A stretch of 64,000 bases of DNA from Thuidium tamariscinum. Lineage: Eukaryota > Streptophyta > Bryopsida > Hypnales > Thuidiaceae. Below the pieces are notes generated by a model. It saw nothing but the letters and a program-made list of their open reading frames with translations. It was not told the origin of the DNA and searched no databases. A program made the position numbers and the translations under genes. Location: positions 27,346,386 to 27,410,385 of the forward strand of contig OX344752.2 of assembly GCA_947034885.2 (NCBI GenBank), read 5' to 3'. Shown one piece after another: positions 870 through 58,725 of the stretch; position 1 is the stretch's first letter, and every line of letters starts with the position of its first letter.

Positions 870-1801
870 TTAACCCCTAAAGGACCAAGGCCTTTTTTTT
901 GTCAAAAACCTCTCAAAACTGCCATTTCTGTTGCATTCATCCAAGAAAACAAAAAATATATATTTTTTAAGAATCTAACCATAGGATCTTAAACTTAACT
1001 TGATTGAAATCAAGTGGTAAAAATTTCATGAAGTTTGACTGTACAGATTGGAAGATATGAGCATTCAAAGTTGGAAATACAAGTTTTTTTGAACTGTGGT
1101 TTGCAATTTCAGATGACTTTGACTGGAATTTGTATTAAAAAATTGCACTATAGACTTTGAATTTATAATTTTTTGTGTTAAGAAATTGAGTTGAGAGTCT
1201 AAGAAAAAAATTTCACACAAAAAACACTTAATTTTCATTCTTTAAAAAATTGTTAAGTAGATGTAGGTCCAAGATTGAAAGAAAAACTAAATGGTTAATA
1301 ACTCTAAAATGGGATTGAAATACAATAATCCCAATGGTGAGATTGTTCTAGAAGATAAACATAAACTTTTCCAACAATTTTTTTTGAAAAATTGTGAAAA
1401 TTGCATTCAAAAATGAATCCTATAAGTTATTTTTTCAAGAAATTGTTTAGATTGCTCAAAAAACAAGATTGTCCATAACTTTCTCATTATAAGTCCAAAT
1501 AGAGTGAATCAAAGCTTCACATGTAGGCAAAAATATATTATTTTCGAAAAAAAAAATTAAAAAATTAAATTTTGACTTTTTGCAAAAAAAATTTCTGCCC
1601 GCCGAATGAAAATTTGGGCTTTTTGTGGTATAACTTTTGCTCCCGGTCACCAATTGAAATAAAAATTACATTCCCATGAAGCTAATCAGTTTTCCTATCT
1701 TATGAGAAAGTTTCAAAAAGATTCATTAAAAATTGAGGTCTACGGAACCTGCCCGAACTCCAAATTGTCCCCCGAGGGGACAATGGTCCTTTAGGGGTTA
1801 A
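870..1801 (-). mobile_element. Non-autonomous TTAA element, copy 1
   Basis: The left end reads TTAA then CCCCTAAAGGACCA. The right end is its exact inverse, TGGTCCTTTAGGGG then TTAA. The interior is non-coding and AT-rich. It aligns by eye, in inverted orientation, with the elements at 8,920-11,548: shared blocks include 'aaccataggatctt', 'gtacagattg', 'cggcgggcag' and an 'aagcttt/aaagctt' region. TTAA at both borders with termini beginning CCC is the hallmark of piggyBac-type transposition. A TA target with ACCCC ends (mariner-like) fits the same bases. No transposase is present, so mobility would depend on a helper elsewhere. Confidence 0.7.
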
Positions 1802-3182: not shown

Positions 3183-3239
3183 TTGCAAGAGTCAATTGCA
3201 AGTGTCAAGCAGCAACATTGCGTCTCTATTCTCTACATA

Positions 3240-5600
3240 AATTTTCTTTATTCTTTTGTTGTTTTAGATCAAATTGAAAAACAATATATAAGTAACATAA
3301 CTCTTTGAAAAATTACAAAGAATAAATGGTGAAGTTCTTAGGTAAATTTTTTTCTTAAATATTTAATTGATAATATCAAACTGACCAATAATTTATAATT
3401 TAAAGGAATTTTAGAAAATTAAAAAAAAAAAAGTAGAATTTTTTAATTTAATATTCACTTTATTTTTTAATATTAGATTACCATCACAAACAAAATATGA
3501 GTAAGATGGTCTTTATAACATTCAATAGCCTTCGTTTTTACTACCTCTCATTTATACTCTCTACTCATCACATTGACTCTCCATGTCTTTTTTTTTTCTT
3601 AATTTTGAATTAGCTACAAATGGATGGAAAATATTTACTAACATCTATTGTAGATTGAAGTCAATGAAAATGAGTGTTAATAAATGTTGTGCTTGAGATT
3701 GCAAATAACAAATGGATAAATTTTTATTTAAATTTTTACCTATTTTTTATTTTAAAATGAAATTAAAAAATAATTCAAAATTAGGAGGACTCTTTGAGAA
3801 CTTTGAAAATTAAATTGTATTAGACCTAAAATGAAATCTTCACCATTTATTTTATTTTATAAATAAAAATTAAAAAATAATTTGTATTAAAGAATCTTGA
3901 AGAATTGTGACATCTAAATTTTATTTTTTTATTTTACATCTACATGACTTTCAAAATTAAAAAGATTCTTTGAGAATTACAAATTTGATCAATTTAATAG
4001 ATGAATTCTTACTTTTACCTATAAGATTTGTTTTTCATTTATAAAATTAAAGAAAAAAAAATTCATGATGAAAAGTCTTAATGAATTACAAAATTAAATA
4101 CAAAGTTGTTGTTTAAATCTCTATATTTTTGTTTTTTGTTTTTCAAATCAATGAAACAAATAATATTCAAGAATGATGAGACTTTCAAAATTCTCAAAAA
4201 TAAATGGAGAATTTATTATTTAAATATTTATCCATGATTTTTTACTTTTTAATATCAAATTAGAAATGACTCATTATGAAAAAGACTCTTTATTGATGAC
4301 TAAAAGAATTTTCACTTCAATGTCTAATTATTTTAATATCAAATTAGAATATTATTCATTATGAGAAAGACTCTTTATTGATGAATAAAAGAATTTTCAC
4401 TTCAATGTTTTATTTTTTTCATTTTTCATTTCTATTATAGCAATTCATAAAATTATATTTTATAAGTATTATATTTTTTAAATTATCAAAAATAAATAAA
4501 AAAATTTATATCTCTTTTTAGATTGTAAATCAAAATGAAAATTAATTCATTAGTAGGCACAATCTTTTAAAATTACAAAAAATTAAATTGATAAGTTTTT
4601 AATCTAAATTTATTACCATCCTCCTATGAAGATAAGCTGTTTGTTTGTTTGTTTGTTACGTTGAGATCTCCCGGACCGTGAATCCCCCGGGTGCGTGTTT
4701 GGTACCGTCGGAAAGCCCTCGGCGAGGAGGGGTGCACGGGCTTTGATTTATGGTGTTCCAACCTACGGCATGAAAGTTATTGAATTTTGAAGTTTTTGTA
4801 CATTAAAAAAAATAGAAAATTATTTATTCTGTTGTTTTTCCGAACCGTGGCAACAGCACGGGCCACCCTAGTTTATTTTTAATTTATGTAATGAATCAAT
4901 TATTATTATTAATAATAACAAAGAGTCTTGGAGAGTTACAAAAAATGAATAGGAATACTTTTATTAAAAGTTTTATTGATATCTTTTTAATTGTAAATCA
5001 AAGTGAGAATTAATTCATTATTAGGCAAAATCTTTAAAATTTGAAAATTAAATTGATAAGTTTTAAATCTAAGTTTTCCACCATTTATTTTTAATTTATA
5101 TAATAAAAATTTATTATTATTCATGATAAAGTGTCTTGGAGAATTACAAAAAAAATTAATAGAAATGTTTCTATTAAAAGTTCTATCTTTTATTTTTATT
5201 CTAAGAATCACCAAAGCAAAAGTTTCATGATTACAAAGTCTTTTTGAGAATAGCCAAAAATATTGAAAGGAAATTTTTTCACTTAAATCAACACCATTTA
5301 TTTCTTATTTTTAATGAACAGAATGATTCTTTGGGAATTGCGAAAAAAATGTAATTGAATAATTTTGGATTTAAGTATCAATTTCATATTTTCATTTTAA
5401 AATGAAAGTTACAAAATACTTCATAATTAAGAGGACTCTCGGGCAATTGCAAAAATTAAAAGGAGAAGTTATTTCTAAATTTTTGTCTATTATTTGTTTA
5501 TTTTAAATAAACATCACAAACAATAGATTAGTAGGATGAATCTTTGAGATTTTTTATAAATCATAAAAGAAATTCTTCTTCATACTCATATTTTTTGCAA
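3240..5600 (-). repeat. Degenerate ~105-bp tandem array (orientation A)
   Basis: A loosely conserved unit recurs about every 100-115 bp: a 'tcatgattaagaagactctt'-like block, then 'tgagaattacaaaaattaaa', then 'gaagttnttacttaaatntc' and a 'caccatttatttttattttaa' block. Examples of successive starts are near 5,018, 5,116 and 5,225. Divergence is high, so this is an old array. A copy of another repeat interrupts it at about 4,625-4,875. Nothing coding is visible. Confidence 0.6.
4625..4875 (-). repeat. Single copy of the ~250-bp 'tcggaaagc' repeat
   Basis: This GC-richer block contains 'tttgtttgtttgtttgtt', 'gttgagatctcccggacc', 'ggtaccgtcggaaagccc' and 'gaggaggggtgcacgggc', and ends 'cacgggccaccctag'. 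It matches the unit of the array at 40,851-42,205. Read on the minus strand it ends in a (CAAA)n tail, which suggests a SINE- or LINE-like 3' end, though no polymerase III boxes were confirmed. Confidence 0.65.
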
Positions 5601-5639
5601 CTTCTAAGGAATCATCCAACTTATATTATTTCTTACATA

Positions 5640-6729
5640 AATTTTCTTCGAAAAATGAAATATAAAATAGAGATTGAAGTTAAAAAATTTCTATAAGAAC
5701 TTTGAAATTTTCTAAGACTCTTCCTAACCATGACAAATTTGTGACTTTGAATGGACAAAAAAAAGTAGAAATTCAATTAAAAAATTCCTCTTTAAACTTT
5801 TGGAATTTTTTCCTTGTCCTACTAATCAAGTTTCTTTTTGTCAGATTGATTTTAAAAGTATTAAATACTTTTTATTACTACATATTTATATAATTTAAAA
5901 GTATAAAAAATGAAAGGTGAAGATTGAAGTAAGATTGCATGAATTTATTTTTGTGATTCTCAGAAATTGCTCTACTCATATATTATTTTTCATTCATTTA
6001 AAAAAGAAGAAACCAAATGTAGATATTATAGTAGGAACTTCCCTATTTCAATTTTTTTCAACTCGAAGAGTGTTTAGACTTTTGAATTATTTGTCACATC
6101 AGTGATATGAAAATAAAATTAAAGGATAGAGATTGAAGTAATAACTTCAAAATTTAATTTTGGCATTTATTTATTTTTTGTTTTTTAAGACTTCTAATCA
6201 TGAATTATTTGCCACTCTAATGTTATAAATAGAAATTAAATGGTAGAAATGTATGTGAAAACTTCTTTTTTAAATTTTTGCAATTTTTATGAATCATTTG
6301 TTGTCTTTAAATTAAAAGTGAAAAGTGAAGGGGAGAGATTTAAGAAAGAACTTTTCTATGTATTTTTTGCAATCTTCCAAAATTTTTAATCATATATGAA
6401 TTTTCACTTTAAGTATTCAATTAAAAATAATGGATGGAAGTTTTAAATAAGATCTCTTCCATTTATTCTTAGAATCTTCAAAAAAGTTGAAAAACCATCT
6501 TATTCATGAATTATTTGTTATGTTGATTTAAAATAATTAATAACAAGTAGGGAATTAATCAAAAATTCATTCTTGTAATTTTTTAATTCTTAAAGAAAAT
6601 TCTCAACTTTGAATATTTTTTCATGTTGATTTAAGAATAAAAAGGTGGATATTTCAATGAGGACATTTATATTCACTTTTTACAATTTTCAAATGAAAAT
6701 TCTATTCAGTCATGTATGTTTTATCACTT

Positions 6730-6805
<76 letters not shown>

Positions 6806-7650
6806 GAGTCATATGAACATGTCTAATCATACATTGTAATTTATAATAAATCATTATTCCCATGTAATATTTTTCAAATTGATATAGAGATAAAAGAAAA
6901 AGGTGAATATTTAAATAAAAACTTTATTATTTATTTCTAGGAATGATTAGACTCCTTCTGATCATGAATCATTTTTCACTTTGATTTTATAAAGACAAAG
7001 TAAATGGAGGAGATTGCATTGGGGTAAAAAAATATTCCTTTTAGTTTTGTGATTCTCAATTACTTGTCATGTTGATTTTGAAAATAAAAAATGATGGGTG
7101 AAGATTGAATTAAGAACACATTTATTTTTTTGGCAATCTTCAAAGAACCATTCTATTTATGTATTATTTGAAACATTGATCTAATAATAAAAATATGAAG
7201 TGGACATTTAAATAAAATCTCTCGATTTGATTTTGAAAATTCTTCCAAATTCTTCCTAATAATTAATATTTTTGTCTTTTATTTTATGGGTAACTAAGAC
7301 AGTCAAGGGTAGAATTTTTAAGTAAGACCTCTTCCACTTATATTCTAGAATTTTTTTTAAATCATTCTATTCATATATTATTAGTCACTTTGATTTAAAG
7401 ATAAAAATACATGGTTTAAAATTAATTAATAAATTTTCCTTGTTTTTCTTCAATCATATTAAAGTTTTTTTATTTTGAATAATTTATCATGTTGATTTTA
7501 AAAACAAAAAATGAAAGGTGAAAATTTCACTTAGAACTTGAGAACTTTCTTATTCATTTTTTTCAATTTTGAATTGATGAATCATCCTATTTATGTATAA
7601 TTTTTTGGGGAGATTTTTTCAAATATAAATGGGAGAAATTGGAGTAAAAA
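5640..7650 (+). repeat. Degenerate ~105-bp tandem array (orientation B)
   Basis: This is the same unit as at 3,240-5,600 but inverted: 'ggagattgaagtaagaactt', 'ttgcaattctcaaagaatc', 'atcatgaattatttgtcac', 'tttgatttaaaaataaaaa'. Block starts near 5,917, 6,018, 6,126, 6,243, 6,333, 6,435, 6,546 and 6,653 give the ~105-bp spacing. The switch in orientation falls at about 5.6 kb. An (AT)n tract interrupts the array. Confidence 0.6.
6734..6802. repeat. (AT)n microsatellite, ~34 units
   Basis: An uninterrupted AT dinucleotide run. It is likely length-polymorphic and prone to cruciform extrusion. Confidence 0.97.
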
Positions 7651-7699
7651 ACTAATAATAGATACAATAATATTTTGTTGTTTGTAAAGAATAATCTTC

Positions 7700-8910
7700 T
7701 TCATATGTAGCTTGTTATGGTAAATAAAAAATATAATATGTAGGTTTTAATTTAGATCTCATTTTAAGAAAATAAATTAAATCAACATGAAAAATTACTA
7801 AAAATTAAAAGAACTCTTTATGAATTGTAGAATTTATAATAAGAATGATTTCTTAATTAATTTACCACCCTATACTTTTTACTTTAAATCAACATGACAA
7901 ATAATATATGAATATAATGCTTGTTTTTTTAATTATTTCTATAATAAAATCAAAGAAATTTAAGTTCCTAAAACTTCTACCCATTATTTTTTAGTTATAA
8001 AATCAAAGCAACAAATCATTAATTGATTAGCAACAATTGAAGACTAAAAGAACAAATGAAAATGTTCTTACTTCACTACAAGAGAAAGGGGTGTTTTAAG
8101 TATAGTCCTAGAGATAACATTTTAAGTAATGAACTTTTTAGGAGATTTTAAGCAAGAAATAAGTGTCTTTGTAGTAAAATTTTACTAGAAAGACACTTAT
8201 TTCTTGCTTAAAATCTCCTAAAAGGGTCATTACTTAAAATGTTATCTCTAGGACTATACTTAAAACACCCCTTTCTCTTGTAGTGCTTCAAGCTCCACCT
8301 TTTTTCATTTTTATTATCAACATAACAAATTATCTATGATTACAAGGACTTACGAAAATAGTTCAATACTTTAAGAAAACTTTTTACTCAAAATATGACT
8401 ATCTATTATGGATATCAATGCAACAATTTATTCATGATTAAGAAAATTATTTGAGAATTTTGAATTCTAAAAGAAGAAGGTTTTGAATAATTCTTTTGCA
8501 CTAAATTTTTATTTTAAAATCTATTTAACAAATGATTTATAATAAGCAAATTTCTTTGAGACTTGTAAGACTAAAGTACATAAGTTATTTTTTAAAGCTC
8601 CACCCATTCTTTTTTACTTTTAAGGATTAAGAATTGAAGATCAATATGACCAAAAAAATTTGATTAGTAGGCCAAGAATAAGTTGCAAAATTTTTTAAAA
8701 GAGGTTTTTATGTACCTACATCACCATCCTTTATTTTTATTTGTACATCCAAAGTGACAAATTAGTTGTAACAAGGAAAAACCCTAAAGACCTTCAAAAA
8801 ACAAATTTAAGAAGTCTTTAATTAGATTTTTGTCTTTTACTTATAAAATTTGTATGACAAGTAATACATGAATTGGATGTTATTCTGAAGATTGCAAAAA
8901 AAATTAAATG
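7700..8910 (-). repeat. Degenerate ~105-bp tandem array (orientation A, interrupted)
   Basis: The array returns to the orientation seen at 3.2-5.6 kb, with blocks resembling 'gaactctttatgaattg' and 'caacatgacaaataatata'. A CACTA-type foldback element is inserted at 8,074-8,285. It ends where a TTAA element begins at 8,920. Confidence 0.5.
8074..8285. mobile_element. CACTA-type foldback MITE with 3-bp TSD
   Basis: The element starts CACTACAAGAGAAAGGGGTG and ends with the inverse, CACCCCTTTCTCTTGTAGTG. CACTACAAGA is the known terminus of plant CACTA (En/Spm) transposons. It is flanked by the direct repeat CTT (8,071-8,073 and 8,286-8,288), the 3-bp target duplication expected for that superfamily. 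Almost the entire 212 bp is a palindrome with ~100-bp arms. The near-identity of the arms suggests recent insertion or hairpin-driven correction. No coding sequence. Confidence 0.92.
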
Positions 8911-8919
8911 AGCTCTTAT

Positions 8920-9641
8920 TTAACCCCTAAAGCCCTGAACAACATTTTTTGAGATTATAAATTTTTTGGGCAGCTCAATATGGATGGAGTTTTTTTTTTT
9001 TTTCTTTGAAATTTTGATACAATGTGTGCCCAAGGAGTATCTTTAAGGCCCAACAATTTTCATAACTTTTGACTTAATGGTTAAAAAGTTATGGCAGGAT
9101 ATGTTGTTTTCTTTACTCGGCGGGCAGCCCAGGCAGCTGAAAAAACTTCTTCAAATTTTTTTTTCTTAAAGTGAAATTTCAAATTGGTTCTTTAGGTTTA
9201 TACAGACATAAGAAGCTTTGAATCAATCCATTCCAATCAATGAGTCAAAAGTTATGAAGATTTTGAGTTTGGGGTAGTTTGTGGCCAGTTATAGAATCTC
9301 TATAGTACAAGAAAAGTTTGAAATTCTTCATTTAATTCAATTTTTCATATTTTTGGAAAAAAATAAAAACAAAAGATGTAGACTGTTTATTACAACATTT
9401 TAACCATTGGGATTGAAAATTTTCAATTCCATGAATAAAATGTTCACAATTTAGTATTTTGGCTCATTTTTTACTTCTTTCTACTTACTTATTTTTTCTT
9501 ATATGTTGTACAATTCCAAATGGTTTGAAATTTTTTGAGAATGTAGCTGTAGTATATAAACTATTGTAGCCATTTTGAATTTTTGGTTTTCTTTGGGTAA
9601 TGTTCCCAATTTTCTATAGTACTACGGTATTTTGGGATTAA
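8920..9641 (+). mobile_element. TTAA element, copy 2a (right end degenerate)
   Basis: The left border TTAA|CCCCTAAAG is intact. The interior aligns with copy 3 at 21,413-21,986: 'ttttttgggcagctca', 'aggcccaacaattt', 'gttatggcaggatatgt', 'gggcagcccaggcagctgaa' and others. A degraded right border, 'tattttgggattaa', may end it at 9,641. Alternatively this and the block at 10,751-11,548 are the two halves of one 2.63-kb element, since the outermost ends (8,920 and 11,548) are well-matched inverted TTAA/CCCCTAAAG termini. Confidence 0.6.
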
Positions 9642-10750
9642 CTTTCTATAGTTGCTGGTTAGTTTTGGTTTTTACTTGGGTTTCATCTATATTTTCAATC
9701 AATGGATGAATGGGTGTAGTTAGTTGAAGGTAGTTATTATGGGAGTTGGAAATTGCAGTTAAATCTATTGTCAGTGGAGGTGGTTGGCAGTCTGGAGGAA
9801 GCCAGAGCTCCTGCGGCAGGGAAGCTGGCAGCCTATGTAGAGCGATAGATTTTGTGTTGAAGCTGTCTATGTGTGAGAAGGAGTTGTAGCGTCTATAGTT
9901 TTGGTGGTAATTCCATTGTGCTGAATCAATAGTTTTAGAGAGAGGTGGTTGTGGGATATACTATGTGAGGATCAATTGTAATTTTCGGTGATGAAATACA
10001 AAGCGGAGATTAATTGTAAATCTGGTGTTTGTGCATGCTGGGTGTGATGGAGTCTATTGTGCTGAATTTGTTGAATGTGTGTGAATAGATTAATTAGGTG
10101 CCAATTGTTGATGATGTTATGGAGTGCTCATTTTCCTATTGTATGTGTATCATGGTGTGATGGATTTATTGTAAGTGATGGATTGGATTGTTAGTGTAAT
10201 CTATAGTGAAAGTGTAATGGCTGTATGTATTAGATCCATAGATTCCACTCTGGGCTAAATTGATTTTAACATGAGCAATGGCATTGAGTGAATTAATGTA
10301 AATGGTAATGAGAGGAAGATCTATAGTTTAAGAACAATCAGAATTTGAGGATTTCTATTGTAACTGTGAGAATATTTTTGAGAAGAATCAATTGGTAAAG
10401 TTAAAGAAGGAGATTTGCAAGATCAATTGGATTTGGAAGACATGCTGGCAGAATGAAGTACAATCGGTGATGTAGTGAAAAGGGTGGAAAGAATCAATTG
10501 AAGATTGTACTTGGGAAGTTGGTGAAAGCTAAAGCTATGGAGTGAAGATAACAATGGATAAGTTTTCCCCATCTGGTTCAATTGTAATAAACTTTGGGTT
10601 ACATCCATAGTGAGAGTACAATTGGGTATTTTCCCTGTTTTCTATTGTGCAATCCCTAGGAATTAACATCAATTGTTATTCTTAAGGACACCTAAGGGTA
10701 TTTTCCTTCCTCCCTGAGAACGAACTTAACTATAGATATTTTTCAATAGT
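9642..10750. other. 1.1-kb insert of distinct composition
   Basis: This stretch is less AT-rich than both flanks and full of short recurring words ('tctattgt', 'caattgta', 'ctatagtt', 'gatcaattg'). It is unlike the TTAA-element interior. No ORF above 61 codons occurs. It could be an internal insertion or the interior of a longer, composite TTAA element. Confidence 0.4.
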
Positions 10751-11548
10751 TTAACCCCTATTAAAATATCAATCTATACTAGCCAACTTGCATTGAAGTA
10801 TGAACTCAAAGAATAACCACCATTTTGAATTTTTTTCACACAAATGTGACCATGTGAAGTGCAGTTGCCCGGATTTTTGCAGGGATAAAAAAACAATTTT
10901 TGTCAATTCAAATGCTTATATTTGGGTGCACATGAGCTAATAGGAGCCACTCAAGACATGCTTTGTTCCTTTTGGAGGGTCCTTTTGAAATTTTGATGAA
11001 CTATTTTAATTAAAAACATCATCAATTTCATCAAAATTAGTTCTAAAAATTATCCAAAGTTGTCAACAATGACAAAGTCTATTCAAAACATCATCATTTT
11101 CATTAGAAAAGTTTCTAAATATTCTAGTTTGAAATTCAACAAAGGAGTAAAAAGCACTGGTTACATGTGCTTTTTTGTACTTAATTAAGATAACATGATG
11201 ACATAATAAACTATGCAATGTTTGAACATGACACTATAACATTTATAATCTATGAAATGTCTTTATTTTAAACAAATCTAAGAAAATGTAAGTTCTATAA
11301 TCAAGAATAGTTCCAAAAAGGAGTGGTTACGATAAAAGTGGCTCATGTTACCTCAAGTGGACCCATTTTGCAATCTGTACGGTGGAAATTCCTGAAATTT
11401 TTTCCACATGTTTACAAACCATCTTATTACAAGATCCTATGGTTACATGAGTCAAAAATGTGTTTTAAAAAAAAATTGCACTTGTATTAGAAATGGCAAT
11501 TTTGGAGCATTTTTGGTGAAAACATAGTCAAAAACCTTTAGGGGTTAA
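10751..11548 (+). mobile_element. TTAA element, copy 2b / right end of composite element
   Basis: The left border TTAA|CCCCTATT is slightly degraded and the right border CTTTAGGGG|TTAA is intact. The right 200 bp matches the inverted left end of copy 1 ('gtacagattgc', 'aaccataggatc', 'agaaatggcaat', in reverse). It is non-coding. Confidence 0.6.
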
Positions 11549-11830: not shown

Positions 11831-12790
11831 ACCCATGGTTTCTTCACCTGTGGTCACTTCTTGAAAGTGAAACTTGTTTTTTCAAGCACTTAACAAAAGT
11901 GACTTTCCATCACCCACATTTGCCTCATCTACGGTCACTTCTTGAGAGTGAAACTTGTGTTTTGAAGCGATCAAGAAAAAATGACTTTCCATTAGCTACG
12001 GTCTCCTTATACGTAGTAGCCCCTTAAGAGTGAAACTTGTGTCTTTAAGCGATCAAGTGGAATCAACTTTCCATTAGCCGTGATCGCCCTATACAAGGTC
12101 GCTTCACCCACAGTCGCCTTACAAGCGGTCGCCCTTTGAGAGTGAAACTTATGTTTTAAAGTGATCAAATGGAAACCACTTTCCATCACCCGTAGTTGCC
12201 TTACCTGCAGTTACTTTACCTGCAATTGCCCCACCCACGGTCACCCTTTGAGACTAAAACTTGTGTTTTGAAGCGATCAAGCAAAAATGACTTTTAATCA
12301 ACTGCAATCGTCCTACACGAGGTCGCTTCACTCACACTCGCTTTACATATAGTCGCCTTTTGAGAGTGAAACTTGTGTTTTAAAGTAATCAAGTGGAAAC
12401 CACTTTCCATCACCCGTGGTCACCTTACCTACAATTGCCTTACCCATGATCGCCTTACCTACGATCGCCCCACCCGCAGTCACCCATTGACTGCAACTTA
12501 TATTTTGAAGTGATCAAGAAAAAAAGACTTTCCATCACCCGTGGTTGCCTTACATGGAGTCACCCCTTGAAAGTAAAACTTGTGTTTTGAAGCAATGAAG
12601 CAAAAAGAACTTTCCATTAGCCGTAGTTGCTTCACCCGTGGTCACCCCTTAATTGAGAGTGAAATTTGTGTTTTTAAGCAATCAAGTGGTTTAGACTTTT
12701 GATCACCCGTGGTCACTCTACACAAAGTCGTCCCACCCGAGGTCGCTTCACTCTAATCGCCTTTTGGCCATTCAAACTCATTATCTATAA
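11831..12790 (+). repeat. Minisatellite, 'gtgaaacttgtgttttgaag' repeats
   Basis: Irregular tandem units of roughly 65-120 bp carry 'gagagtgaaacttgtgtttt', 'gaagcgatcaagnaaaaatg' and 'actttccatcacccg' followed by one to four short 'gtcgcc(t/c)tacc(t/c)(a/g)c' blocks. The number of short blocks varies between units. The part right of 12,338 is also in the giant inverted repeat. 'gtcgcc' and 'cacccgtggtc' echo, on the opposite strand, the 35-bp repeat at 3 kb. Confidence 0.8.
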
Positions 12791-13701
12791 AGTGGTTCTT
12801 GTAATGTCATCTTAGCCAATCCGCAGTCGCCTCTTGGACATCTGCATGCACCCCTTGGACACCTACGGTCGCCTTTAGGCATATGTGTGTCCCCCTTGGT
12901 CCATTTCAAGTTTCAATTTGGGATTCACTTGTCTATGCAATTGCACTACTATTACAGCTTACAAAAAAGCTTGATAGTATGTCATTTAATTAGCATTAGA
13001 AAATTAGATTTGGAAAGATTTTGCATCTTACAACAATGTTTAGTAATATGCTACATGTGAATTAATAACAATAGTGTGTCAATTATAAATTAGTAATTGG
13101 TGTGATTAAAAAGGTCTTTGCAAATCCTAAATCCTACATACCCTAAACCCTACAAGCCCTAAACCTTGAAATTCAAAAATCATACTTGTATGCAATACTA
13201 AAATTTATAGATTCTAAATGGAGGTCTTTCGAAGATAATATTTTATTTCAAAAGGCGTCCAAAAGTATTAGATAATGACAATGTCCTTTAGTAAAAAAAA
13301 TTGAGAGGAGCATGCAAATGAAGGAAGTTTAAGGGTCATGGAAGGAAATTTAGGAAATCCATTTTTACTTTTATTTTCTTAGAAATCTCTTTAGTCTAAT
13401 AATTATCTTGGTCATAAACTTACATTCCATTTTTCTTGTTTATTTTCAAACTAAATACAAGAATGAAGACATTGGTTTTAGAACTTCTTCTTCCCATTTT
13501 GTCAACTTTTAAGTAAAATCATTTTACCACAATTTAATTTAGGATGTAAAATTAAAAAAATGCACAAATGGTATTGTAAAAGAAAATTTATGAAACCCCT
13601 TTACTTTTTCTCTTTTAAAGATCTTTTTACTAACCATCTTGGTCATGCACTACATAGCGCTCTATTTTGTTCCAAAACTAAAATCAAGAGCAATGACATG
13701 G
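12338..13701 (+). repeat. Left arm of giant inverted repeat
   Basis: The 1.36 kb here reappears in reverse complement at 17,370-18,733. Paired positions keep a nearly constant sum (about 31,070), so net indels over the arm are only about 2 bp, and the stretches compared by eye were almost identical. The outer third is minisatellite; the inner part is AT-rich single-copy-like sequence containing CCCTAAA motifs. No ORF is shared by the arms. Such identity means a recent inverted duplication or ongoing gene conversion between arms. Confidence 0.9.
13139..13165 (+). repeat. Telomere-like CCCTAAA cluster
   Basis: Within 27 bp the plant telomere unit CCCTAAA occurs three times ('accctaaaccctacaagc' then 'cctaaacc'), preceded by related 'cctaaatcc' words. 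The mirror copy lies at about 17,905-17,932 in the other arm. It may be a short interstitial telomeric remnant or a telo-box-like sequence. It is too short to have acted as a telomere. Confidence 0.7.
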
Positions 13702-13892
13702 ACATTAAAAAGTGACATGCATTTAGTACTATATTTTTTATATTCTTTTCTCTTTCTAAAAGATATATAAGTGTATGGAGAACTAAACACAAAGTTTGAA
13801 AATTTTCATTTTTATTGGTGGATTGTTTTGTTCAGAAAGTTGGTGAAAAGAAAGGATGAAGTTCTACAAAGTTGGTTTTTTTTATCAACGAC

Positions 13893-16739: not shown

Positions 16740-17369
16740 TAATGATTAGTAAATTTTTTATTTTCTTATTTTAAATAGGGAAATGGGATTTTCTTAAGTT
16801 TTTGTTTGATCTCTTTTGCACTTTATTTTTCATGATTCTACATCTAAAAGTCTAAACCCATATTAGGATGAAACAACTTTTAGGAGAAGTTGACAATATA
16901 AAAGGAAAAGGTCTTAGAACCAATGTCTTTCTTCATGTTTTTAATTTTGAAACAAAGAAGCTACATGGTGCATAATCAAGATGATTAGTGAAAGAATTTT
17001 TAAAAGAATTTCTAATTTTGTTTTCTATGGCACCATTGGTACTTTAGCCATTTATTTAACATTTAAATTTGTTGTATAGACTTTACATGATTAAACTTGA
17101 AAATTAATAAAATGAAAGGAGTATGTTTTATACAATAGTTTAGTGCCACTCTTTTACTTTCATATTATTTACTTAAAAGAAACATATAAGCTAAAAGATA
17201 CATGAATAAGATAATTAGTAGAGAAAATTTTTCCTTTAAAATAAGAAAGAATTTCCTAAAATTCCCCCAAAGACTACCTTTACACTTTAATTTTCATTCT
17301 ATATCATAATCATTTCACAATGGATTTTATTTTGAAGTACATAATACAAAATTAAGAAATAATAGTGCC
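16740..17369 (-). repeat. Degenerate copies of an arm segment
   Basis: Two or three diverged blocks resemble the inner part of the inverted-repeat arm: 'gaaacaaagaagctacatgg', 'gtgcataatcaagatgat', 'tagtgaaagaatttttaa'. They continue the arm's right-hand orientation toward the spacer, so the arm itself contains the end of an older ~200-bp tandem series. Confidence 0.5.
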
Positions 17370-18733
17370 CATGTCATTGCTCTTGATTTTAGTTTTGGAA
17401 CAAAATAGAGCGCTATGTAGTGCATGACCAAGATGGTTAGTAAAAAGATCTTTAAAAGAGAAAAAGTAAAGGGGTTTCATAAATTTTCTTTTACAATACC
17501 ATTTGTGCATTTTTTTAATTTTACATCCTAAATTAAATTGTGGTAAAATGATTTTACTTAAAAGTTGACAAAATGGGAAGAAGAAGTTCTAAAACCAATG
17601 TCTTCATTCTTGTATTTAGTTTGAAAATAAACAAGAAAAATGGAATGTAAGTTTATGACCAAGATAATTATTAGACTAAAGAGATTTCTAAGAAAATAAA
17701 AGTAAAAATGGATTTCCTAAATTTCCTTCCATGACCCTTAAACTTCCTTCATTTGCATGCTCCTCTCAATTTTTTTTACTAAAGGACATTGTCATTATCT
17801 AATACTTTTGGACGCCTTTTGAAATAAAATATTATCTTCGAAAGACCTCCATTTAGAATCTATAAATTTTAGTATTGCATACAAGTATGATTTTTGAATT
17901 TCAAGGTTTAGGGCTTGTAGGGTTTAGGGTATGTAGGATTTAGGATTTGCAAAGACCTTTTTAATCACACCAATTACTAATTTATAATTGACACACTATT
18001 GTTATTAATTCACATGTAGCATATTACTAAACATTGTTGTAAGATGCAAAATCTTTCCAAATCTAATTTTCTAATGCTAATTAAATGACATACTATCAAG
18101 CTTTTTTGTAAGCTGTAATAGTAGTGCAATTGCATAGACAAGTGAATCCCAAATTGAAACTTGAAATGGACCAAGGGGGACACACATATGCCTAAAGGCG
18201 ACCGTAGGTGTCCAAGGGGTGCATGCAGATGTCCAAGAGGCGACTGCGGATTGGCTAAGATGACATTACAAGAACCACTTTATAGATAATGAGTTTGAAT
18301 GGCCAAAAGGCGACTAGAGTGAGCGACCTCGGGTGGGACGACTTTGTGTAGAGTGACCACGGGTGATCAAAAGTCTAAACCACTTGATTGCTTAAAAACA
18401 CAAATTTCACTCTCAATTAAGGGGTGACCACGGGTGAAGCAACTACGGCTAATGGAAAGTTCTTTTTGCTTCATTGCTTCAAAACACAAGTTTTACTTTC
18501 AAGGGGTGACTCCATGTAAGGCAACCACGGGTGATGGAAAGTCTTTTTTTCTTGATCACTTCAAAATATAAGTTGCAGTCAATGGGTGACTGCGGGTGGG
18601 GCGATCGTAGGTAAGGCGATCATGGGTAAGGCAACTGTAGGTAAGGTGACCACGGGTGATGGAAAGTGGTTTCCACTTGATTACTTTAAAACACAAGTTT
18701 CACTCTCAAAGGGCGACTATATGTAAGGCGACT
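17370..18733 (-). repeat. Right arm of giant inverted repeat
   Basis: Reverse complement of 12,338-13,701 (see that entry). Homology breaks at the inner end after 'ccatgtcattgctcttgatt' and at the outer end inside minisatellite units that then continue independently to about 18,835. Confidence 0.9.
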
Positions 18734-19160
18734 GCGAGTAGGGTGACCGCAATTGATGGAAAGCTGTTTCAGCTTGATCGCTTCAAAAATACAAGTTTTT
18801 CTCAAGGGGCGACCACTTATAGGAGAAATGAGCTTTGAACTTGATGGATGTTTTTTCTCCCTAAAAGGGCATGTAGAGATGAAAAAACCATAGGTGGTGA
18901 ATGAATATATATGAGATTAAAAACTTGTGCTAGAAAGATTAATTTTTTCCTTCAAAAAACATATGTGGATGAGGTGATTATGGATGGTGGGAGGCAACCA
19001 TGTATAGAAAAGAACTAGTGATTAGAAGGTCATTTATCCACTAAAAAAGGACTAGAAAAAGTAGAAGAAGATAATTCTTTTGAAGGCCTTTTTTCTTAGA
19101 AGGGATAATCCAAAGTAGATAAAAGGCAAATCTCCTTCAAAGTTAATGTATAAAAGGATT
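18734..19160. other. End of minisatellite and AT-rich intergenic DNA
   Basis: The first ~100 bp are a last diverged minisatellite unit. The remainder has a few 'gatggtgggaggcaacc'-like remnants and no recognised gene. Confidence 0.5.
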
Positions 19161-21412
19161 TAAATTAGGATTTGTTTATTTTGAAATTTTGAAATAATCA
19201 TCCAAATTGTATGTTGTTTGTCCCATAAATTTTATAAAACAAAAGTTTGGATTAGAATTTACTTAAGAATTTTTCAATTTATTTGTTGTAGCTCTCAAAA
19301 ACTCTTTCAAATCATAATTGATTTGCTACTATGGATGTATAAATATAAAAGGTTGGTTAATTAGGTAAGAAATTTTTCTTGTAAATTTTGCAATTTTTTC
19401 TTTGTTGTACTAATTAATCATAACTTACTTGTCTTTGATGTCATCTAGAACTACATATAATGGGTCAAGATTGATATAAAAATTTTCTATTTAATTTTTA
19501 TGATTTTAAGAGAACCATTTTTTTAATGTATTAATTGTCATATTTACATTGATTTAAAAAATTAATAATAGACAAAGAGAGAGATAAGAGCATACTTATT
19601 TTTTTGATAATTTTCAACATCTATTCTTACAAAGATTTCATGCAAATTTTAGAAGAGCAATTGAAAGAAAATTTGAATTCCATCAAACCAAATAAACCCA
19701 TCATTCTACCTACATACTATTTAGCACAATTTTTTTTTTTAAAAATACGAAGGTTAAAAATTTAAGTAAAAACATTTCCATTTATTTTTTGAAATAACCT
19801 AAGTCTTCATTAGTTCATATAGCTATGAATTATATTTTACTTAAATTTTATAAATAAGAAGTGAGGGGTGGGAATTTAAATAAGAGCTGACTATAATTCA
19901 CTTTTAGAATCCTTAAAAGAATCATTCCATTTGAAGTATTTTTTATCATCTTGATTTAATATTGAAATCAAATGGTGAAAATCTAAATACAAACCTCTCT
20001 ATATATTTCTTGGGATTCTTCAAGACTTCCTAATAATTATGAATTCTTTGTCATTTTGATTATATAAATAACGTAAAAAGTGGAAATAAAACTACAAACT
20101 TCTTCATACCATTATAATTAGCAATCTTCAAAAGGTCCTCCTAACTTTGAATGTTTTGTTATGTTGATCTAAAAATAAAAAATAATTGATGAAGATTCAA
20201 TTAAGATTTTTCTTATTTTTTTCAATTATCAATAATTCATACTATTAAAGTATGATTTGTCATGTTGTCATTCAATAATTTAAAGTACTAGATTAAGATT
20301 TAAATACAAATTTTCCTATTAATTTTTGGCTATTCTCTAAGAGTTGTCCTAGTTGGATAGTTATGAATCATTTGTCATATTCATTTTAAAATTTTGAAAT
20401 TTGTGGTAGAGATTTAATAAGAACTTGTCTATTTTGATTTTGTAATTATCAAAGAATCATTATACTAATGAATCATTTGTGAAATGCATCTAAAAATGAA
20501 ACATAGAGGGGGGCAATTTAAGGAAGACTTTCTTCCTTTAGTATTGGTAACTTTCATGTAAGAAATTTTTCTTTTAATATTAAACTATTTTTTGAGACCC
20601 TTCATATTTATAAATCATTTTTTTGTGTTAATAATATAAAATATATAACAAAGGATAGGGATATAAGAAAGAACCTCCCTATATATTTTTTGCAATTCTT
20701 CAAAACTTTTCCTTAGTTTGAATAATTTGTTTGACTAAAAAACTAAAATACAAAGATTATACATATCTAAGAGAAATTATTATTTATTTATTTTTTGCAA
20801 TTCTTCAAGGGTTTTTGTAATCATAAATTACTTATCACTTGATTTTCTAACTATAAACTAAAAAGTAAATGATGATGATTTAAATAAGATCTTTTCGTTT
20901 TAATTTTTTCAATTTTCAAAAATTTCCAATCATGAATTGTTTACCATATCCATTCTAAAAACAAAAATGAAGGATGGAGATTGAAGTTATTAAGAATGTG
21001 TCCATATATGTTTTGTAATTCTCAAATAATCATTGCAATCGTGTATTATTTGGCACATTCATTTGAACTTACAATAAAATCAAAGTATGGTTGCTTGAGT
21101 AAGTATTTTGATTTGTTTTTGACAATTATCCAAAATTCCTTCTAATATTGAATTTTTTGTCACTTTGTCTTTGTAAATAAAAATAAAGGATGGAAATCTT
21201 AAGTAAAATCTTGTCCATGTAATTTTGAAATCTCCATAAATTCATTTCATTACTGTAATATTAATTATGTTGATTTAAAATTTGAAATAAAATGTTTGAA
21301 ATATATTAGAAACTACTCCATGTAATATTTGCAATTTTTAGAGAGCCCTAGTAACTTTATAGAGCTTGTCATATAAGTTGATTTTGTAGAATAGAAAATC
21401 AAGGGTGGAGAT
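19161..21412 (+). repeat. Degenerate ~105-bp tandem array (orientation B)
   Basis: Same unit and orientation as at 5.64-7.65 kb: repeated 'ttgcaattntcaaagaatc', 'atgaattntttgtcattttg', 'aaaataaaaaatggntggag', 'atttaantaagaacttttc'. Units are strongly diverged and spaced about 95-115 bp. The array ends at the left border of the TTAA element at 21,413. Confidence 0.6.
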
Positions 21413-21986
21413 TTAACCCCTAAATGCCTAAGCTGTGTTTTTTGGCATTATAAATTTTTTGGGCAGCTCACTACGAATGGAGTTTTTATTTTTTTTCTTC
21501 GAAATTTTCACACAACATGTGTCCAAAGAGTAGCTTCAAGGCCCAACAATTTTTGTAACTTTTGACTACACAGTTAAGAAGTTATGGCATGATATGTCAT
21601 TTTGTTTGAAGTGAGGGCAGCCCGGGCAGCTGAAAAAACTTCTTTAAGAAAACTTTTTTTTCAAAAGTAAAATTTCATATTGATTCTTTAGGTTTTTACA
21701 GACATGGGAAGCTTTGGATCATTCCATTTGGATTCACGGGTCAAAAGTTAAGAGGAGTTTTAGTTTGTTGGTAGTCTGTGGATAATTATGAAATTTCTAT
21801 TCTAAGATAAACTTTGAAGTCCATTATTTTATTCATTTTCTTAAGTTTTTGGAAAAAATAAAAACATTAGGTGAAGATTATTTATTTCAATATTACTATC
21901 ATTTGGATTGGCATGTTTAATTTTACTAAAAATCAAAATTTTAGAATGTTTTTGATGAAAATATAGTCAAAACCTTCAAGTGTTAA
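21413..21986 (+). mobile_element. TTAA element, copy 3 (short, right end decayed)
   Basis: The left border is TTAA|CCCCTAAATG. The right border has decayed to 'ccttcaagtg|TTAA' but is still recognisable beside the intact version at 11,530-11,548 ('atagtcaaaacc' precedes both). The interior is collinear with 8,920-9,450, including 'gggcagcccgggcagctgaa'. It is a ~574-bp non-coding internal-deletion derivative. Confidence 0.7.
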
Positions 21987-56228: not shown

Positions 56229-58725
56229 CTACAGGGGTTGATCGTCCGGGAATTGGAACAGAGACGGAAAGCCAGTCGGTGACGGCACATCGCGCGGACT
56301 CCACAACGAAGACGACGGCTCGCCTTGCTCGAAAATCTGCTCATACGAAAACAATTCCACATCGGAGCTGCTCATCCCGGCGAACAAATTTCCGCCGCTA
56401 CTCGATGCTGCCACATTTGCACCAAAGGGTGCAGAAAATCCTCCAGGGCTCTCTACGGATTGCTGATACGAAGTAAATCTACCGGGATCTTCAGCCAAAA
56501 CTCCAGTCGCTGCTTGTTGCAAATACGGATGATTCTGATATTGTGTTGATGATGCTCCTGGGTTGTAAGAAGCTGACGGATCGGCTTGATTCTGGTATAG
56601 ATTCCCAGCTTGTGTGTTTGATGCTTCTGGGTTGTAAGAAATTCCCAGATCGGCTTCGTAGTGGCTCACATTGTGAAAATTGGGGTTGCTGGAATGTGGC
56701 CATAGCTGCTGTAGGGGGAGCGACAGCGGCGACGGTGGATTGAGATCCCGGGATGACCATAAGCTGCTCCGGGATTGCGATTGAGACTGGGATTGGGACT
56801 CAAATTGGTTTGGGGTTTGGATTGGTGGTGCTGGGGATCTGTCGGGGATGGCCATGTCGATGACGTTGAAAGCCGCGGCGGGTAGCAAGTAGGGATCCAC
56901 CAGAGATGAGGAGTTGAAGAGCGTCGCGCTGGAGGGCGATACTGCGAGCTCGGCGTGTTGCGTGGTGACGATGTCCGAATTCGTCGTCGTGCTGCTCCAA
57001 AGGAATTGTGAAGAAGAGGGTGCTCGCGACGGCTCTCCGCGTGACGGCCAGGCGGGATTTGAAGTGACGATGGTAGTGGACGCGGCGGCGGTGGTGACCG
57101 CAGTGACGCTCGATGGAGGTTTGGGCTTGATGTTGGGGGGAAGCTTGCCGTCGGGGAAGTTGAGCTTGGCACGGACGCCGCGGAACTTGGTGGCCGCGAC
57201 GTCGTACGCCATGGCGGCCTCCTCCGCGGTGTCGAACGTGCCAAGCCAGACGCGCGCTGCTTTCTTGGGGTCGCGAATCTCCGCAGCCCACTTGCCCCAC
57301 GGCCGCTGCCGTACTCCGCGAAACCTCTGCTTCCTCACTCTCCCGGTGCTCGTGGTGGTGACGCCCTCAATTGCTACGGCGGATTCGCGCGTTACGTTTC
57401 CTAGTCCCAGCTCCGCTTCATCATGCCCGCTTCGACCGCCGCGCATCTGAGAATCTGAAACAGCAAGAAAAATGTCACGTCCTGAGGGATGCGCACTGAG
57501 AAGATCGACCTAGCGAATTGAAGTGATCACGAAACGCTTTTTATCGCTTTATAGTTGAGTTCACGAAGGGTCTCGGGTGCATGCAGCCATGGTCCCACCA
57601 AAATGAATAGAAAATGGGAGATCGCACTGGTGGTGGCTGCTCAACTCCGACTAACGCCCGCACGAAGGTGCACCACCAATTGCTGATAATCAGGAATACT
57701 ATCACAACATGAATTTCACTGGGAATTGGGGATAAAGCTTAACCCGCTTGAAGGTTCACGAGAGGTTCACGATGAAAGCAGCCCTGACTCACCTGTTGAA
57801 AGCGGTGGGCTCCTCCGAAAATTCACTACTCCGTATTTAAGAACTCCATATAACTACCAGTCTACCAATACTACAGTGTAACAGAAATGGCAAACAAGGC
57901 CCACTCAAGGCTCCCTCCGCGTGATTCTATTAACTCCATACGTGGGATTTATAAACCCCAGATCGAAACCCTTAAACCCTGCCGTCAGAATCTAAGGCCT
58001 ATCCCAAACTACGGCTTAAAGGCCCAGATTTGTGAGCTGAGCTCAACACAAAAGCGGCACTAAAAGCGTGGAACACCAAAGACTGAAAGTGTCAAATTTC
58101 ATATGTTGAAAAAATTATAATGGAATAAGATGGTGGTGGAAGGGGGGGTACCTGGATTGCTACGAGGAGGCGAGAAGTAAGGTTTGCAGCAGATGTCGGA
58201 GTGCTGGATGCCGGAGTCTGAGCTGCAGCTGCTCATCCAGCTGGGGCTGCTGCTGTACGCTGTGGCCGCTCCAGGTGACGATCGCGACTTCGTGGCCTTA
58301 GACACCACTTCCCCAAGCGGATTCACCGTTGTTGGCGGCCACGAGAGTGTGACCACTTCACTCGCGCGCGCCTGAATCTCCATGTCCCGCGCCAAATTCG
58401 CAATCACACTGGGGTCGGACCAAGCACTACTGAGGAATTCGTCTCGGGGGCGCTTGTTTCCCGCGAGCGCGGCGCTCAGACCCTCGTCACGGTCACACGA
58501 GCTCAAGAGGTCTCTCCAGGGGCTGGAACTCATGTATGGTGCCTCTGGGCTTGTGAAGAATCCTTGAGAAGGATTTTCTACTGCCCCTGAAGGGGACGGT
58601 AAGAATTCCATGGCATTGGAAACGATCTCCGCCGTGCGGCTCCGCGAGCGAGGGATGTAATCCGGAGGGCCAGTCGCTGGTTCCAGCTTGTCGATTCTTC
58701 CTGGTTGCATGCGCACACAAATCAT
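56229..58725 (-). CDS. ERF: AP2/ERF transcription factor, ERF subfamily, 2 exons
   Basis: DNA-binding regulator expected to bind GCC-box promoters of stress and ethylene-responsive genes. Exon 1 58725-58152 (start ATG at 58,725, '[12 protein letters not shown]'); intron 58151-57455 (GT-AG, 697 bp); exon 2 57454-56229; 599 aa. The splice joins the two frames in phase through 'SNP-DSQMRGG'. One AP2 domain at ~235-292, from [17 protein letters not shown] to [11 protein letters not shown], with Ala14 and Asp19, the ERF-type rather than DREB-type pair. A short basic stretch (GRVRKQR) precedes it and may help nuclear import. The long C-terminus is rich in Ser, Pro, Gln and Asn, with an SQ repeat, two 'SYNP(E/G)AS' repeats and an acidic/aromatic end typical of activation regions. 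Upstream 'DYIPRSRSR' recalls N-terminal ERF motifs, but the group within ERF is not settled. Using only exon 2 would give a 405-aa protein starting inside exon 2. Confidence 0.93.

Follow-up and report, generated by a model that had tools for sequence, protein, structure and literature searches.

TTAA-bounded non-coding elements in the genome of the moss Thuidium tamariscinum, almost certainly members of the piggyBac superfamily

Introduction

The piggyBac transposon is a leading tool for genome engineering. Terminal inverted repeats (TIRs) in the superfamily are 12-19 bp long and have a C-rich start, generally CC[C/T]T, according to the available part of PMC2872659. Accounts of its presence in plants differ. 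In the portions of these papers available to us, PMC12732532 calls piggyBac occasional in plant genomes, PMC8086355 places such elements in fungi, plants and animals on the authority of a survey, PMC10813416 has piggyBac isolated from insects, fungi and plants, and PMC10794571 counts PiggyBac among the superfamilies in plants, while the available part of a Ceratopteris paper gives 1,230 PiggyBac copies (122 kb, 0.00%). Among the matches listed in the openly licensed literature, no title or opening of an abstract dealt with an expansion of piggyBac in land plants. In two papers on plant miniature elements (MITEs), PMC12595863 and PMC12550479, the words "piggyBac" and "TTAA" are both absent from the main text as available; PMC12550479 also refers to a further "special group".

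Here we analysed a stretch of 64,000 nucleotides from Thuidium tamariscinum (C4:27346386-27410385), referred to as the window, together with the assembly from which it was taken (363,211,507 bp in 19 contigs). The window contains three elements that are almost certainly non-autonomous members of the piggyBac superfamily, and the nuclear genome of this plant also contains many piggyBac elements with a transposase. The superfamily is already known; it is the host and the scale that are unusual.

Results

Three related elements in the window

The elements, here called A, B and C, are each bounded by TTAA. Coordinates are positions in the window, and the minus strand of A is the orientation of its transposase-bearing relative, described below.

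870-873, no strand: left TTAA target-site copy of element A (from the sequence and genome copies)
874-1797, minus strand: element A, 924 bp, non-coding, very probably a piggyBac derivative, with a 14-bp perfect TIR, CCCCTAAAGGACCA
1798-1801, no strand: right TTAA target-site copy of element A (from the sequence)
8920-8923, no strand: left TTAA of element B
8924-11544, plus strand: element B, 2,621 bp, a relative of A and C; its right end matches a transposase-bearing element (E 8e-12)
11545-11548, no strand: right TTAA of element B
19096-19417, minus strand: empty paralogue of the insertion site of B, with one TTAA at 19160-19163 (joined-flank match)
21413-21416, no strand: left TTAA of element C
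21417-21982, plus strand: element C, 566 bp, right end decayed; 77% identity to B over the first ~540 bp
21983-21986, no strand: right TTAA of element C

Sequence comparison showed that the three are mutually homologous. Besides the ~540 bp of 77% identity, C has its right end in common with B, and the minus strand of A aligned with B over two segments, one of 548 bp at 57% identity and one of 188 bp at 68%. Together with TTAA, the TIR of A forms an 18-nt perfect inverted repeat (870-887 and 1784-1801), and around B there is a 15-nt perfect inverted repeat, counting two flanking bases. A profile built from A, B and C gave E 0.064 for the next best stretch of the window, which is not convincing as a fourth copy.

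All three elements are non-coding. The longest reading frame in any of them is 104 codons and that of the consensus of 30 A copies is 78 codons, while a Pfam search with 10 of the 12 frames of at least 50 codons in or overlapping the elements gave nothing credible (best E 0.077). A search against Rfam returned nothing, and a scan for patterns in viral contigs yielded 29 stretches related at most by pattern and short chance words.

Several other repeats were observed in the window. A foldback element (1798-1953) with 77-nt arms, 87% complementary and 2 nt apart, lies directly against the right TTAA of A. An inverted repeat of ~1.47 kb with 97% identity occupies 12239-13707 and 17363-18814. At 412-415, the minus strand has a lone TTAACCCCTAAGT end, and the 627 bp preceding the window contain no TTAACC to pair with it.

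Borders of the elements

A preliminary description of this DNA had listed seven positions at which TTAA adjoins similar termini. TTAA could be read at all seven, and six of them (870, 1798, 8920, 11545, 21413 and 21983) bound A, B and C, leaving position 10751 unsupported as an element end. Among the matches listed to segment 10600-11370, none begins at 10751 and only the window itself crosses it: of these 42 matches, one is the window itself, 39 start at 10,906-10,935, and the remaining two start at 10,780 and 10,919. We consider B to be one unit because an empty site matches the sequences flanking it on both sides.

The interior of B contains a later insertion at 10924-11364, and perhaps more. 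The inserted sequence is a separate element, a 441-bp repeat that starts with GGGTGCACATGAGC, ends with ACCC and is flanked by a 4-bp duplication, ATTT, as judged by eye (10920-11368). Three further copies are flanked by CACT, ATCT and TACA, so that the target of this repeat is 4 bp long with no fixed sequence.

Within the window, CCCCTAAAG occurred 22 times at up to one mismatch against 12.4 expected, a count reached in 1 of 100 shuffles and thus by itself only marginally above chance. The case therefore rests on end-to-end homology and on the genome-wide counts rather than on this motif.

The TTAA target across the genome

From 6,941 first-look candidates, 40 full-length copies of A with 96-100% identity were scored, including the one in the window. 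For further analysis we retrieved the 30 most similar copies, the window's own among them, as loci (numbered with the prefix L). TTAA was present on the left side of 29, on the right side of all 30 and on both sides of 29, corresponding to 59 of the 60 borders; two copies, L031 and L059, have altered terminal bases. The next base outward was mixed, both on the left (T in 14, A in 8, C in 7 and G in 1) and on the right (A in 13, G in 9, T in 7 and C in 1). The mean divergence of the 30 copies from their consensus was 1.44%, which must be read as a minimum for the whole family because these copies are the most similar ones. The identity among copies suggests a fairly recent expansion of the A family.

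Counts of the ends alone gave a similar picture. There are 5,028 exact occurrences of CCCCTAAAGGACCA in the genome, as compared to 1 for the reversed control, and 4,488 of TTAACCCCTAAAGGACCA, as compared to 0. TTAA precedes 4,488 of the 5,028 exact CCCCTAAAGGACCA ends and is missing from 540. TTAACCCCTWAA yielded 20,418 ends against 219 for its reversed control. Collection of genomic copies by their shared termini, as had been suggested beforehand, thus bears out a TTAA target, and A-type elements are flanked by a 4-bp TTAA target-site duplication. A different end, TTAACCCCTAAATGCCCA, was present 7 times among the retrieved loci of this genome (for example at L087:1228), which suggests another abundant family of piggyBac type.

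Empty sites

The sites compared here are paralogous repeats with 67-90% identity, not orthologues. When the flanks of B were joined by one TTAA, they matched the minus strand of the window at 19417-19096 with identical residues in 178 of 268 columns to the left of the junction and 44 of 65 to the right. With the two flanks tested apart, the TTAA at 19160 was the best for each after B's own flank (992 and 988 tests for left and right), and the right flank alone scored 14 at this TTAA as compared to 4 for the next unrelated one (988 tests). The empty site is part of a diverged, mostly very AT-rich repeat family that occurs in both orientations at 3200-8900 and 19100-21340.

For 9 of the 30 A copies, the joined flanks yielded a spanning match when the retrieved loci and the window were used as targets, with at most three matches listed per copy. 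A single intact TTAA was found in at least one match for five of these (L031, L035, L036, L039 and L050), whereas for the other four (L032, L043, L045 and L054) the junction tetranucleotide differed from TTAA in every match listed. All supporting copies except L031 also showed matches with a variant junction, and L054 is an A copy inserted in another copy of the A family. The preliminary description had expected a single TTAA at orthologous empty sites if the elements are piggyBac; at these paralogous sites the expectation was borne out for B and for five of the nine A copies, but not for the four with variant junctions.

Transposase genes and transposase-bearing elements

Of 658 first-look candidates for the piggyBac transposase domain (PF13843), 116 were scored above the cut-off, with a best E value of 5.7e-80, and there are matches on each of contigs C1-C10. 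None of 14 control genomes gave a match; as these appear to be prokaryotes (the only one named is a cyanobacterium), the control is weak. The earlier premise that land plants lack piggyBac, or have it only very rarely, does not apply to this genome; for other plants the papers, in their available parts, differ.

One transposase-bearing element is a full 5.1-kb copy, L080, with TTAA at 59-62 and 5151-5154 and the ends CCCTGAAACGCCGG and CCCCTAAACGCCGG (CCCTGAAACG and CCCCTAAACG with TTAA included on both sides). It contains an open frame of 1,023 codons with the PF13843 domain at residues 533-932 (266.5 bits). Comparison of its predicted protein to solved structures identified piggyBat (9c0f, E 1.1e-27) and a chain named "Transposase" (6x67, E 1.1e-22), which we take to be the T. 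ni piggyBac transposase. The aspartates of the motifs TVDE, TDNF and GVDTADQ, presumably the catalytic ones, align with those of the solved transposases. The transposase-bearing relatives of the non-coding A, B and C thus appear to encode a DDE_Tnp_1_7 transposase with a catalytic DDD triad.

Eight more loci are 99.93-99.98% identical over ~3,985 bp to L071, which is the same copy as L080. All nine have TTAA at the one end that was covered and unrelated flanks. Because these loci are near-identical, the 5.1-kb family has probably moved very recently. At L073:217-220, the TTAA next to a copy of this family is also the border of a B/C-like element, so that one TTAA serves both elements.

The transposases of 20 loci fall into lineages that are 33-58% identical to each other, with near-identical pairs within some of them. 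This low identity between lineages argues against a single recent arrival. We located the 5' ends of 8 of the 9 transposase elements examined, choosing among TTAACC strings; 6 start with CCCC, 1 with CCCA and 1 with CCCT. The 3' end could be located for only six of these eight.

A transposase-bearing relative of element A

In a direct comparison of A, B and C with the 20 transposase loci, matches were confined to L069 and L073. The L069 element, at C7:1354927-1360069, has TTAA on both sides and a frame of 774 codons, in which the transposase domain is uninterrupted and TIDE, MDNFFTS and GVDVADQ motifs are present. Its ends aligned with those of A over 305 bp at 68.5% identity and 143 bp at 70%, in the same order and orientation and each reaching TTAA (E 1.7e-41 and 3.8e-19). 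The scores were 158 and 84 bits, as compared to at most 39.7 bits in 200 dinucleotide shuffles. The right end of B matches the C7 element as well, whereas at the same threshold no match to it was obtained for the left end of B or for C.

On this evidence, the non-coding A and a transposase-bearing element have homologous ends. Since both ends of A align with those of the C7 element, A is an internally deleted piggyBac relative that lacks the middle. The TIRs differ, however (CCCCTAAAGGACCA in A versus CCCCTAAATGCCCA and CCCCTAAGTTCCCA in the C7 element), and the ends are only ~69% identical, so we regard the C7 element as a relative and not as the demonstrated partner of A. The search for a transposase flanked by the same ends, which the preliminary description had proposed, therefore succeeded in part: an element with a piggyBac domain has both A ends in common, while an exact partner with CCCCTAAAGGACCA ends was not found among the 20 transposase loci compared.

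Superfamily assignment and host

Taken together, the TTAA statistics, the paralogous empty sites with a single TTAA and the C7 element with both A ends uphold the piggyBac-like reading that had been put forward at the outset. Kolobok and Sola3 also duplicate a TTAA target. That one of these superfamilies mobilises A, with piggyBac merely using the same target, would agree with the lack of an exact partner, but both A ends align with a TTAA-bounded PF13843 element at scores far above those of the shuffles, and we consider this very improbable.

Still less probable is an origin from mariner- or pogo-like elements with a TA target and ends of their own reading ACCCC...GGGGT, the TTAA being accidental. 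At a single site, a TA duplication next to A...T ends gives the same bases, and the preliminary description had left this alternative standing. With a TA target, the outer T and A would be free and, judging from the base composition, the outer T would be expected in about one-third of the ends. Instead, the outer bases are nearly invariant (4,488 of 5,028 exact ends and 59 of 60 borders), which excludes a Tc1/mariner 2-bp TA duplication with free neighbours; moreover, the bases beyond TTAA are mixed across A copies, and an element with a PF13843 domain has ends homologous to those of A.

We also rejected a TWA target for A, as well as a PIF/Harbinger 3-bp duplication of TTA or TAA, since the three bases next to the symmetric ends, TAA at the left border and TTA at the right one, make no direct repeat. 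A target duplication of 8-9 bp, as in hAT and Mutator elements, was rejected too: the direct repeat around A ends at TTAA, and the bases outward are mixed across copies.

An open frame of 426 codons of AP2/ERF type is located within a GC-rich island at 56232-57509 on the minus strand of the window. We compared one light-harvesting protein of the assembly to solved chains. The best was 9vfj_2 (438.5 bits), a 620-residue chain named "LHCI-2" for which no source organism is given; the next chains scored 351 to ~329 bits and are presumably mostly from land plants, and further ones scored 318 bits and below and are presumably largely algal. Together with the AP2 gene, these scores point to a land plant as the most likely host. 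Contamination with DNA from an animal, a fungus or an oomycete, the organisms from which piggyBac is mainly reported according to the available part of PMC12732532, is an extremely unlikely source of the transposase copies given that PF13843 matches occur on each of contigs C1-C10, that A is on the same contig and in the same window as the plant AP2 gene, and that the assembly contains chlorophyll a/b-binding genes.

Discussion

By analogy with the established biochemistry of piggyBac, a related element would supply the transposase that binds the ends of A-type elements, the bound element would be excised via TTAA hairpins, and the excised element would then be inserted at a new TTAA, duplicating it. 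We think it somewhat more likely than not that, in at least this lineage of plants, piggyBac forms a native population that is ancient, diverse and mobile to this day, with several transposase lineages kept over long times, at least one recently moving family and tens of thousands of ends. If so, piggyBac would be a major native class of transposons in the kingdom for which the available part of PMC12732532 describes it as occasional. With its many intact-looking transposase frames and ~20,000 matching ends, this genome opens the superfamily to testing in plants, including whether the transposon was inherited from early plants or arrived from outside, and the near-identical transposase-bearing copies provide material for excision assays. 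The TTAA class may also be mislabelled in surveys of plant MITEs that are based on five superfamilies.

Like the plant MITEs of the Stowaway, Tourist, hAT, Mutator and CACTA types, the elements described here are non-autonomous, present in high copy number and bounded by TIRs. The targets differ, being TA for Stowaway and TWA for Tourist in the available part of PMC12595863 as compared to TTAA here. The coral CMITEs, which are MITEs derived from piggyBac, resemble A in being non-coding with TTAA flanks and a short TIR, and they likewise keep internal sequence between families, one of which is tied to piggyBac by its ends (PMC2872659, in the part available). According to the same part of that paper, they are ~100 bp in size as compared to 924 bp for A, which, unlike them, aligns with a transposase-bearing relative over 143 and 305 bp of its ends.

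Similarities to piggyBac itself extend to the transposase. The T. ni (6x67/6x68) and piggyBat (9c0f) proteins are DDE_Tnp_1_7 transposases, as is the predicted protein here, with the three aspartates in the same motifs, although the solved chains have 578 and 594 residues whereas the L080 frame has 1,023 codons with a long part ahead of the domain. The TIR of A is 14 bp long, within the range of 12-19 bp, and starts with CCCCT, which does not match CC[C/T]T exactly; the 5' ends located in the local transposase-bearing elements also start with CCCC rather than CCCT in 6 of 8 cases. A TTAA target duplication and a C-rich 14-bp TIR are common to both, while the host here is a plant.
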